From assembly GCF_024713945.1 (NCBI RefSeq), contig NC_134682.1, positions 62,001-126,000 on the forward strand: a DNA stretch of 64,000 nt, read 5' to 3'. A model generated the notes under the pieces. That model worked only from the letters and a program-made list of their open reading frames with translations. It had not been told where the DNA came from and ran no database searches. Both the position numbers and the translations under genes were made by a program. This document shows positions 1,179 to 9,406 of the stretch, one piece after another (positions within the stretch are counted from its first letter, which is position 1; each line of letters starts with the position of its first letter). This DNA is from Dermatophagoides farinae. Lineage: Eukaryota > Arthropoda > Arachnida > Sarcoptiformes > Pyroglyphidae.

Positions 1179-1617
1179 CGTGATCGTGGTTATTGTGATG
1201 CTGGTGATGGTGCACACAGGACAACAGACAATTGAATGTGGATGTTTGGTTGTGGTGTCGTTGTTTGGACGATATGGTTGCAGCAGCATTAAACTTGTTG
1301 GATGATGATTTCAAGCCGAGTATCTCGTCGATACTGTATCGATTCGATCGATGGTCAACGATGGCTGTATTGATATCTTTGCGTATCTTTAGATTGTGCA
1401 ATTGGCTATTATTGTTATTGCAATTGAATTGAGCAAACATTTGGCCACAGTGATCCAGTTTGCCTTGGTTATCATTATTGCTACATTTATCCATCGATTC
1501 ATGTAGATTGGGGATAAAAACCAGTTTTCGCATCTCGTTTTTCAACGTCGATTCCACATCATGTTGATGATGATGGTGATGATGATCCAAGTAAAATGAA
1601 TTATTCTCCATAATCAT
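1179..1617 (-). CDS. 5' coding exon of a PRD-class homeobox gene, homeobrain/Rx-like (partial)
   Basis: This is the first coding exon of a minus-strand gene. The start chosen is the first ATG (1615-1617); an in-frame TAA lies just upstream, and a second ATG two codons later (MIM) is equally possible. The exon gives 146 codons plus one base and ends at a strong donor (cacG|gtaagt), phase 1. Residues 12-17 are a His run. Residues 94-101 read YSIDEILG (1315-1338), an octapeptide/eh1 motif. Family knowledge: eh1 motifs recruit Groucho co-repressors and sit N-terminal to the homeodomain in PRD-class proteins such as Rx and homeobrain; the YSIDxILG form reminds me more of homeobrain, but I cannot decide. 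The homeodomain itself is not in the window. The location 3.8 kb from otp on the same strand fits the hbn-Rx-otp cluster. What else: another eh1-containing nuclear factor. Confidence 0.65.
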
Positions 1618-3250
1618 TCGATTGTCCAATTAATCAAAACAATCACCAAAGGATTATAACCATCACCATTGGAAACAAATCAAGCGAACACCTCGACCAA
1701 GATTGTCTGAATGAAACTGGAATGATCAATGCACAGACACTTTATATTACACAATCCAAACCAACAGACAGACATGTACTGATGAACAACAAAGTTGACA
1801 AACTCAAATTACCTATATATAGAGAGAGAGAGAGAGAGCGTAGAGTGACTAGAATTGAATGGCTTCATGATGATCAAATCATCATCATTATTATGACGAG
1901 CAAAGGCACATTCGACATTCACATGATCTGAATTGTCGATGACAGAAAATTGCACAATGGAATAAGCATTCTATGATTCGATTATATGGACGCCTCACAT
2001 CATAATGCATTGCCGATTCTTGATCGTTGGATTTATGTCTAACAATTTTGCCAACACCACATCAGACCAGACACACGCACACACACAAATACACTTGGTT
2101 CATATTCAATGTTTAAATGAATTGTATTTTCAAATTAAATCTTCCACTCTCATCTCCCCCTCTAATGTGTCGATTCGATTATTGTTATTATCATTGATCA
2201 TCGTCGTCACACAGGATGCGGCACCAAATTTCATAACCATAAAAGTTGCCATACATTCTCTAATACCTCTACAATCGTCCATTTACTGCTTCTCGCCAAT
2301 ATCCGGGAATTTTGTTCAATTCTGCTTCTGCTGCTGCATTCTGGAACAATGATTCTGGTTGATGGGCCAATTATAGAGAATGTAATATTATAGGGAGGAC
2401 TTTGATTGCACCCGCCGTCAATGTGTGTGTGTGTGTGTCTGTGTCTATCGTTGACTGTATACAATCCGGTTGAAAGCTATATAATTGCCGACCAATCCTG
2501 GTCTGCCGATCGTTATTGGCTCCACCTTGTTTTCGGGCTATATCTATGACGTTTGTTTTTGTTCAACCAGATGATTGCCCATCATCAGGATGAATCAAAT
2601 TGATTATACCACACTCACAGACACACAGACAATACTATTGTAATTGATGATTCAATTTGTACTGCGACCAAATATTTTCATTTCCAATCAATTCAATTCT
2701 ATTCGATTCTTGCAAACCAAACTGAAAGACCAGTACCATCTATGATCGAAACCAGAAAACGAGTAGAGTTCGATAGCAAAGAAATAATTTTTGTCGAAAA
2801 GTCAAATCAATTCGGTTCGAAAGAGAAAATTTCAAAATAAGTAATATATTCCGCCATCTATCGAACAAGAATAAAACTTTTTGTGATTTTTTTTCATCGA
2901 TATCCATGAAAACGATACAACTCAAACTGCACCGTCTCCCTTCAAATCAGCTGAATGTGCGAGAAAAAAGCAATCCAGTTTGTCCATGATTTGAATCAAT
3001 AATTTATACACCTGTGTAGTATTGTTGAATCTATTTTTAATTTTTTTTAAATCGGTTTTTCCTCTTCATTTCTCACACCTAGGACACATCGATTTGTCCT
3101 AAATTTATCGATGACGAATAACCCTAAACGGCTTCAATGGACATTGCATTTTGTGGCCAAGAAATCAACCGTTACGTTTTTGTTTTATTGAGGAAAAGTT
3201 TGAATTTGAACATATTTCACTGACGAAACGAAAACCTGACGCATCGATCA
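1618..3250. other. Divergent intergenic region between the homeobox gene and the isomerase gene
   Basis: About 1.6 kb separating two divergently transcribed genes, so it should contain both 5' UTRs and promoters, but I could not place a TATA box or start site with confidence. It contains a short (GA)n run near 1821-1838, a (GT)n run near 2421-2437 and an ATAGATGGC motif on the minus strand at 2853-2861. No convincing coding sequence. Confidence 0.5.
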
Positions 3251-6214: not shown

Positions 6215-8461
6215 CTAGAAAAGGAAAGAAAAGAAAAGAAAAGAGAAAAAATTGCTTATTTTCCGTTGTTGTATGAATTTGACATTTTCAATTCAATTAT
6301 TGTTTTTCTCATTTCAAATCAAACAATTTGTATCAAAATGAGTTGCCTGTTTTGACTTTTTCTTGTGATTTGGATCTAAACAAACAAACAAACAACAACC
6401 ACCACCACCATAAGCGACTAATTTTCCCGTGGTCGATTCTTTTCAAAAGAACATTAGCTCGACACAACAACGACAAGCGAAAAAGTAGTTTTCCTATTGG
6501 ATGCACTCTTGGCATCTGACAAAAAGCTTTTAAAAGCTCAATTTAGACGACAAATGTGTGTGTGTGTTTTGGTTATCTATGAGATACGAAGGAGAAATGG
6601 AGAAAAGCATAGGGGAGTTTCCATCAATTCTGAGCTTGTGGATGTTGTAGTTGGTTCTGTTTGGTTCTGTTTTCAGAAACAACACGCATTCACAGCAGCA
6701 CTCACATAGAGAATATAGACTGCAGTTTGGTTCATTTTAGATGATGATGATATTATTTGTATTATTCCCAATGTCCCAGTATACGTGTCGTCTTTTCTCT
6801 TTTTCGTTTGACTTTTTTTTCTTTTGCAGCATCCAATCCATCCATCCATCTATCTATTCATTCACTCATTCATCCATTCACAGTTTCATGTAGTGAAAGT
6901 GAGAAAGAGAGAAAGTGAGTGAGACACATAGGCTCATTGGGACAGATTATTTTTTAATGGGACAGCAAAACCACATTAATATCGAAAATGCAAAATTGCT
7001 GTTAATGTTGTCGTCGTCGATTCGTTTTTGTCGTTTATGTTTGTTGTCTATTTCGCTTTTAGCCAGCCCGTTATTCATTCATTCGTTTTGCACGAGCGAA
7101 CGTTAACAACATTGAACGCTATGAAACGCGTACACGGAACATAGTCCCAGAAGAATCGGTGTGGCACCGGGAGAGAAAAAAGTGAAAAAGAAATCCCTGG
7201 ATACCATCTTTGATTCATTTCATATCGATGATATCCATATGGCTCGTTCGCCATTCACACTCGATTCTGATTTCGTTTTCTTACTCGCGCCATTCATGTG
7301 ATGATCTAGATTCTAGAGTAAGAATGTCTGTTGGGTTTGACTTTGTTTTCAATAATGATGCATTACACTACTGTTAGAGGGAGAGAGAGATGGTTTAATG
7401 TTTGATGTGTGATCATTCACATCATCATCATCATCAATATTAACCAACAATGTTTGTATCAGTCAGTGAGTGAATATGAAACACTATGAAACAACACGAA
7501 ACATGTTGACAATTGTTCATATTTGCCTTACTTGCTCATCACGAATAAGACAAGAGAACAGAATGCAGAATGCAGAATGATGATAAATAATGATTATTAG
7601 CTCATAATAACAATAACAATCACCATCATCATCATTATTACTATCATCCAGGGTCGGTGACTTTATCCCGAAACTTAAACCAATCACACACATACTGGTT
7701 GGTTGTGAGCAATGAATAACAGTGTTTTTATGGTCATCGTCTATACAGTCTCATTCGATTTCAAGGTAAATTTGTTCAGTCAGTTTCAAACATCATCATC
7801 GTTTGAGCTAGGAAAAAAGAATATAAATTCGAATGGCGGCATAAAGTCAAAGCCCAATTACTGTGTGCGTATGTGTGTGTGTGTTTGTGATTAAGGTGCA
7901 ATGAGAATGTGCATGGCCAACGAATATACGATTTTCTCCCAAGAGAGCTCTATGGTGGCCACATGCATACAGTACTAGTAATATACGGTAATCACATCAC
8001 CAGTTATTCTCATTGACCACTCACTAGACGACACAACAACAATGAAGCAACAAAAGATTGACTTGAATACTTGGAAATATTTCGACTTTCACTTGCATCA
8101 AATCTATCTTTCACTTGTCTATGTCTACACTACTAATTCATTTCATCTCAATTCTGTCTCTCTCTCTGTGTGTGTGTGTGTACCTTACTTGACAAACATC
8201 TAAGAATGATCAAATAAAATGAAATTGACCTGGTTGGTGTTCATGTGAGAATTTCTTCTTCTTCTCATCGTCGGTGACAAATGTCTAGACAATCGGTTAT
8301 AAATGGTTTATGGCCCATTTATAGAAATCGATTCAGACCACACACACTTTGGCTACAAGCAAACAAGCAAACAAACAAATTCATTCTATTCAAATGCACA
8401 CACGTTAGTAAAATAATAAACCTTTCTGCTTCCAGTTTTTGCACCATTAGTAACACCATAC
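6215..8461 (-). other. otp intron inside the homeodomain (position 46/47)
   Basis: Runs from the CAG|gtatgg donor at the end of the large otp exon to the ttctag acceptor of the microexon. Intron position 46/47 is a common ancestral one in PRD-class homeobox genes. The content is unique A/T-rich sequence with short (GT)n and ATC-type runs; I see no second gene. Confidence 0.85.
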
Positions 8462-9406
8462 CTGAACACGAGATTCCGTTAGACCGATTCTCATGGCCAA
8501 TTCTTCTCGCATGAAGATATCGGGATAATGAGTTTTGCCAAAACTTCGTTCCAATTCTTGCAACTGTTGTGGTGTGAATCGTGTACGATGACGTTTCTGT
8601 TTTGATTGTTGTTGTTGCTGCTGATGCTGCTGTTGATGATGATGATGTGATGGATGTTGTGGTTGTTGTTGTGGATGGTGATTAAGTTGTTGTTTGTTGG
8701 AATGATGATCATGATGATGAGAATCATGTGTATTGCTAGCACCATTGTTGTTGGACTGTAGCAATAGGTCGGCTGTGTTGATTGATGAATTCAATAGATG
8801 ATGATGGTGTGCATGATGATTATGGTCAACATTATTCACCACCTGATGATGATGATGATGTCCAGGGTGGTGTGAATGTTGTTGCTGCTGTTGATGATGT
8901 TGTTGATTAGTTGTTTCGGCGAGCAAATGCAAATGTTGATGATGTGATGGATGATGAAGGTGATGGTGGCCACCACCACCACCATTTCCATGATGCAGTT
9001 GGGGCTGATGTTGTTGTTGATGAGGGTGATGATGAGAGTTGAGATTCTGTGATGAATGTGCCATCAATGTCGGGTTGTTTGTTGTTTGATTCTGCAAGCC
9101 ATTACCGTGGCCACCAAGCAATAAGGTACTACTTGCTGTTGCTGACATTGTGTTCTGGGCACTTTTGACAAGATCTCCATTGGTTTCTTTGGCAGCAGCG
9201 GCCGCAGCAACAACTGCTGAGCTTGAATGGAAATTGTTCAACATTGTTGGCCAAAGCGTTTCCCAGAATGCGGCCGGAGTGGACGAACCGGATGAAGAGT
9301 TGCCACCACCACTACCACCACCACCGACAACGGTGCCGGTTGAATCGTAAAATTTTGATGATGCCGTGATTGCGGTTTGATTGATGTTTATTGCGATGAT
9401 TTCACA
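8462..9406 (-). CDS. otp: Orthopedia, large exon with His/Gln-rich region and most of the homeodomain
   Basis: Encodes, counting from the Met at 9242-9244, 261 residues ending in homeodomain residue Q46 at a CAG|gtatgg donor. The homeodomain starts near residue 216; [18 protein letters not shown] and GLTESRVQ are hallmark Otp sequences. The N-terminal part is very rich in His and Gln. The frame stays open upstream of that Met to 9406 (Gly-rich and Ser-rich, coding-like) but has no other ATG; it meets an in-frame TAG that doubles as an acceptor-like gattag|TGT. So translation either begins at 9244 or, more likely given the coding-like upstream codons, in an unfound upstream exon. Alternative: that upstream part is 5' UTR. 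The 5' boundary at 9406 is therefore uncertain; the 3' boundary is firm. Confidence 0.9.

Follow-up and report, generated by a model that had tools for sequence, protein, structure and literature searches.

The window, a 64,000-base stretch of Dermatophagoides farinae DNA (C6:62001–126000, where C6 is contig NC_134682.1 and a window position equals the C6 position minus 62,000), almost certainly holds the right-hand part of an intact homeobrain–Rx–orthopedia (hbn–Rx–otp, HRO) cluster of PRD-class transcription-factor genes. We observed directly the genes of the trio, their order and strands, their open frames and their orthology. The arrangement is hbn(+), Rx(−), IDI1(+), otp(−), with coding extents of C6:55040–56894 for hbn, 60547–63617 for Rx and 67418–71244 for otp, and with 16,205 bases from the hbn start to the otp start (Table 1). 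The hbn and Rx genes stand tail to tail, 3,652 bases separating their stop codons, and Rx and otp are parted by one non-homeobox gene on the opposite strand, which is IDI1-like (Pfam NUDIX, E 3e-13; PDB 2icj, isopentenyl-diphosphate delta isomerase, E 7e-88). The HRO cluster as such is already known. In the accessible portions of the literature searched, mostly outside subscription journals, we found no description of the cluster in any acariform mite and no paper treating Dermatophagoides and homeobrain together.

The original prediction had described a PRD-class 5′ exon bearing an eh1-like motif, YSIDEILG, 3.8 kb downstream of a clear orthopedia gene and on the same strand, and had read the two as part of the HRO cluster, retained as ancient microsynteny in a compact genome. 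The motif is present exactly where it had been placed, on the minus strand; 3,800 bases run from the otp stop (window 5418) to the Rx start codon; and the exon joins in frame to an Rx-type homeodomain about 300 bases left of the window, on the minus strand beyond position 1, where the prediction had proposed to look. Membership in the cluster stood but its extent had been understated, as the whole trio is present, including hbn beside Rx. Retained microsynteny is supported, all three genes lying within 16.2 kb, and at 62.4 Mb the genome is indeed compact. The feature had been drawn to window 9406, which is the end of the otp open frame, whereas the modelled otp start is the first in-frame ATG, at 9244; because the frame up to 9406 has no earlier in-frame ATG, a further 5′ exon of otp is possible.

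Table 1. Features of the HRO cluster and the intervening gene on contig C6.
Feature	Position	Strand	Remarks
hbn exons	C6:55040–55543, 56136–56155, 56267–56894	+	in-frame model, 383 residues
Rx exon 4	C6:60547–61351	−	outside window
Rx microexon	C6:61435–61454	−	outside window
Rx exon 2	C6:61563–61948	−	ends at homeodomain codon 46; outside window
Rx exon 1	window 1179–1617	−	first coding exon found; start codon at 1617; donor CACG/GTAAGTAG
Rx octapeptide (eh1-like repression motif) YSIDEILG	window 1315–1338	−	within exon 1
IDI1-like isopentenyl-diphosphate delta-isomerase gene	window 3422–4156 (searched stretch)	+	between Rx and otp
otp last coding exon	window 5418–6123 (C6:67418–68123)	−	runs from the third base of homeodomain codon 53 through the stop
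otp OAR motif	window 5433–5480 (C6:67433–67480)	−	PF03826, above family cut-off
otp microexon	window 6195–6214 (C6:68195–68214)	−	GTCTGGTTCCAGAATCGAAG; V47 W F Q N R52 plus two bases of codon 53
otp first modelled exon	window 8462–9244 (C6:70462–71244)	−	opens at the first in-frame ATG and ends at homeodomain codon 46

Each of the three in-frame models (383 residues for hbn, 549 for Rx and 502 for otp) contains a complete 60-residue homeodomain; the splice sites are predicted from reading frame and consensus signals, and the start codons are putative. Searching the genome (62,435,336 bases in 22 contigs) with the Pfam homeodomain model listed 92 exon-level matches, three of them inside this 16 kb, at C6:55409 (+), 61560 (−) and 70456 (−), all in PRD homeodomain exons. 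Were the genes placed at random, the chance that two named genes would both fall within 16.2 kb of the third is about 3e-7.

To assign orthology, we built a tree of 30 homeodomains: the three cluster genes, seven further PRD genes from the mite and 20 provisional reference sequences. Measured against these provisional references, all three grouped with the expected orthologue, at 98/92 for hbn, 99/99 for Rx and 99/99 for otp, values that are rough because the bootstrap had not fully settled. In this PRD-class tree, which the prediction had suggested, the left gene joined fly and human Rx, hbn joined fly hbn, and the grouping with human and fly Otp bears out the orthopedia gene already named. 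Homeodomain identities to the same provisional references were 57/60 between mite and fly hbn (best other family 51), 60/60 between mite and fly Rx (best other family 45) and 56/60 between mite otp and human OTP (best other family 45). The spliced mite Rx homeodomain also has valine 43 and arginine-alanine at 18–19, given as marks of the rx family in the accessible text of Mazza et al. 2010 (PMC2938728). The trio could in principle be recent, lineage-specific tandem duplicates of one PRD gene that do not correspond to the hbn, Rx and otp of other animals, a reading suggested by their adjacency and by two homeodomain intron positions in common, one of which occurs in 0/7 other PRD genes read. 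However, each gene has its own named orthologue, uniting the trio costs three changes and none of the 200 bootstrap trees does so, no two of the three homeodomains agree at more than 45/60 residues, and the introns at R53 are of unequal length and look dissimilar by eye. Recent duplication was rejected by the tree, with its provisional references, and we give it practically no credence.

The chromosomal setting bears on whether the linkage is real. Contig C6 starts at its left end with (CCTAA)n, and the trio lies 55–71 kb from that telomeric array, whereas the right end carries telomeric repeats in an unexpected orientation. Some end piece may therefore be misplaced, which would fit an assembly misjoin near the contig end, but the cluster sits within 126 kb of one contig running in from the normally oriented left array, and linkage of these genes is established for many other animals; we consider a misjoin very improbable. 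GC content in 6-kb steps was 0.31–0.36 over the first 24 kb, 0.42–0.46 at 24–48 kb, 0.36–0.40 at 48–78 kb (the zone of the trio) and 0.33–0.36 beyond, with 0.29–0.345 at 20 loci elsewhere. Within the first 71 kb, open frames, those of the trio among them, had a third-position GC of 0.34–0.62, versus 0.11–0.33 in the 20 loci. The same stretch holds a group-2-allergen-like gene at C6:23244, whose nearest PDB entries are Der f 2 and Der p 2.

The Rx model has one octapeptide and one complete homeodomain. The N-terminal octapeptide expected of Rx/Rax (HSIDAILG-like, after the Nematostella form; PMC2938728) is present as YSIDEILG, the sole match to [FYH][ST]I[DEN]x[IL][LI][GSDN] in six frames of C6:1–126000, a count that is a rough guide to chance only, because the pattern was written after the motif had been seen. 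At residue 70 of hbn stands FLIDQILK, which is octapeptide-like and lies outside the pattern used; the Nematostella hbn octapeptide is YTIDMILG (PMC2938728, excerpts). A genome search with the OAR model PF03826 at E up to 10 returned two matches, of which only that of otp passes the cut-off. In some protostome Otp proteins the OAR is reduced or lost. No OAR was listed in the 549-residue Rx model at E up to 10, and none was found near Rx by the genome search or by a fuzzy scan of C6:50001–72000 against a provisional consensus, searches that a motif divided by an intron could escape; nor was one found in the 383-residue hbn model or nearby in the genome search. As available excerpts report the OAR in most, not all, Rax proteins (PMC7137802) and in Nematostella hbn (PMC2938728), the mite Rx and hbn proteins are not textbook copies.

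In hbn, Rx and otp alike, one already known intron follows homeodomain codon 46 and a second lies inside codon 53 (phase 2), delimiting a predicted 20-base microexon for VWFQNRR, homeodomain residues 47–53 (V47–R52 plus two bases). In otp it is preceded by an AG acceptor and followed by a GT donor, and splicing of the microexon is inferred from such signals in the sequence. Its pattern with both splice sites occurs at three places in 62.4 Mb, exactly the trio, and the reversed control gave 0 matches; the pattern asked for glutamine or lysine at codon 50 and the related intron patterns were slightly wider there, so that serine-50 genes would be missed. By contrast, the second intron was absent from 7/7 other PRD genes with a 46/47 intron that we read by sequence (L025, L028, L029, L032, L034, L037 and L038, a subset of the genome's homeodomain exons). 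A pattern for exons continuing past codon 53 matched 11 places, five of them among these seven genes. Two others, C1:542589 and C7:2729838, were not counted as 46/47-intron genes, the homeodomain match running unbroken through the site, and four more are candidates by pattern only: C1:6644080, C3:2058018, C4:5460157 and C2:7982408, the last unsure because its homeodomain match starts before the site. Phase-2 donors in codon 53 were found at eight places, the trio and five other homeodomain exons (C2:1031194, C8:3427756, C10:2447540, C10:2905323 and C10:2933232), with two matches for the control pattern. These five exons we take provisionally, by eye, to be ANTP-class. They share the codon-53 intron position, which is thus found outside the trio as well, whereas the microexon pattern is confined to it.

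As its 20 bases do not make up whole codons, loss of the microexon from the transcript would shift the frame, remove the end of helix 3 and cut each of the three proteins short within the recognition helix, with 1 (hbn), 23 (Rx) or 24 (otp) wrong residues predicted before a stop. The introns at R53 measure 111 bases in hbn, 83 in Rx and 71 in otp and are unlike by eye. In the excerpts available, a single exon of Nematostella hbn encodes the last 14 residues of the homeodomain, without a second intron (PMC2938728), and the Rax genes of seven vertebrates compared have three exons (PMC7137802); later gain of the codon-53 intron is therefore somewhat more likely than ancestral presence. An ancestral microexon of the HRO progenitor, lost elsewhere, is a tenable but lesser possibility: it would account for the identical codon and phase in three neighbours and for the 0/7 count in the other PRD genes read, yet it needs several losses, given the exon structures of Nematostella hbn and the seven vertebrates' Rax, and the interruption of codon 53 at phase 2 in the five ANTP-like exons points rather to a suitable site that has received introns repeatedly. 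Returning to later gain, it is conceivable, though we think it rather unlikely, that the already diverged trio acquired introns at one shared codon and phase, either through parallel insertions or because one neighbour was copied from another, and that a single splicing regulator could thereby turn all three genes on or off together.

Synonymous-codon sharing was 0.59 for hbn–otp, 0.54 for Rx–otp and 0.50 for hbn–Rx; with the seven other PRD genes it was 0.33–0.45 for hbn, 0.28–0.46 for Rx and 0.47–0.62 for otp. We did not count this as evidence that gene conversion within the trio was the source of the shared intron, because the GC-raised zone alone would make codons alike (homeodomain third-position GC 0.38–0.47 in the trio versus 0.12–0.22 in the seven other genes). 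A site for a neural microexon regulator was dropped as a candidate, TGC standing just before the acceptor in hbn only. Accessible excerpts give five exons for Drosophila hbn, six for DRx and up to exon 9 for otp, without the position of a second intron, and among the homeobox and microexon literature available as titles and abstract openings none treats a 20-base homeodomain exon. If spliced as predicted, the microexon would make the trio a test of concerted intron gain and shared splicing control in clustered paralogues.

Each gene of the trio would encode a DNA-binding protein that controls how the anterior brain is patterned early on, with an N-terminal octapeptide-like repression motif in Rx, and perhaps in hbn too, and a C-terminal OAR motif in otp. 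The anterior-brain role is assigned by homology, and shared regulation is the usual explanation for linkage of the three genes. The house dust mite is not known to have eyes, and its keeping Rx in the trio fits a brain role for Rx over an eye role. Passages on expression in the fly and other animals are a source for the anterior-brain role (PMC2938728, excerpts), and by analogy the trio is probably expressed in the mite brain. The trio most likely stays linked through common enhancers or chromatin domains, which would make shared regulation the reason for the linkage, and would have been inherited as a block with no recent event.

Excerpts of published accounts place the HRO cluster in cnidarians, insects, a centipede (PMC4244043), a tick, spiders and a limpet, a linkage older than the divergence of cnidarians and insects. 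The tick has the order hbn–Rax–otp, as do most insects examined and the mite, whereas spiders have the reordered Rax–hbn–otp (PMC10726417). Other orders occur in a mosquito and a limpet (PMC2938728), and in a sea spider the genes are dispersed (PMC12220506), so neither linkage nor order is obligatory. Isl is often linked to the HRO genes, as in the tick and spider clusters (PMC10726417), but in the mite the Isl-type homeodomain (96% over residues 2–49 of a provisional Isl reference) lies on the same contig at its opposite, oddly oriented end, at C6:5187516, 5.1 Mb from the trio. The Drosophila cluster at 57B (hbn, DRx, otp) has the genes and order of the mite cluster, spans about 38 kb and has otp reversed (PMC2938728). 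In excerpts of the same paper, Nematostella vectensis matches the mite in order and relative strands, with hbn opposite to rx and otp, in an hbn–rx stop-to-stop distance of 3,437 nt (3,652 in the mite) and in the homeodomain 46/47 intron of all three genes. It differs in a span of 34 kb against 16.2 kb, in OAR motifs in rx and hbn, where the searches of the mite counterparts gave none, in the lack of a second hbn homeodomain intron, and in that IDI1 between Rx and otp belongs to the mite cluster (PMC2938728). Mite genomes are described, in the accessible text, as marked by compaction, rearranged homeobox clusters and transcription-factor loss (PMC6107062). With the trio in order, on cnidarian-like strands and within 16 kb, the HRO linkage therefore outlasts strong genome compaction.

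The splice position at phase 2 of codon 53, the predicted second homeodomain intron of the hbn–Rx–otp (HRO) trio, also ends five further homeodomain exons, located on other contigs of the same genome. Its recurrence outside the trio hints that an intron was gained repeatedly at this single site.

GC content is elevated at C6:24000-78000 (C6 being contig NC_134682.1), a zone that lies 24-78 kb from the left telomere and extends to window position 16000. GC reaches a maximum of 0.46 here versus approximately 0.30 elsewhere, and the first 24 kb of the contig show no elevation. Third-position GC in open frames of the zone is 0.34-0.62, compared with 0.11-0.33 at 20 other loci. 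One possible cause of the raised GC is biased gene conversion.

Features within and beyond the HRO cluster
Feature	Position	Remarks
IDI1-like gene (isopentenyl-diphosphate isomerase)	window 3422-4156	between Rx and otp, on the strand opposite to both
Homeodomain exons ending at codon 53, phase 2	C2:1031194, C8:3427756, C10:2447540, C10:2905323, C10:2933232	ANTP-class by look
ML-domain gene	C6:23244-23564	near telomere; related to Der f 2 and Der p 2, mite allergens of group 2
CCTAA array (L039)	C6:5241355-5241854	right contig end
Isl-type homeodomain	C6:5187516-5187659	opposite end of C6 from HRO

At the right end of C6, CCTAA occurs 97 times within 500 bases, in the orientation expected of a left end; the left end likewise reads CCTAA. 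This right-end array may belong to an end piece placed in the wrong orientation, or it may be an internal telomeric array. The ML-domain gene matched allergens in the PDB at E 2e-13. The Isl-type homeodomain and HRO each lie around 55 kb from their own end of C6; Isl is often linked to the HRO cluster in other animals.
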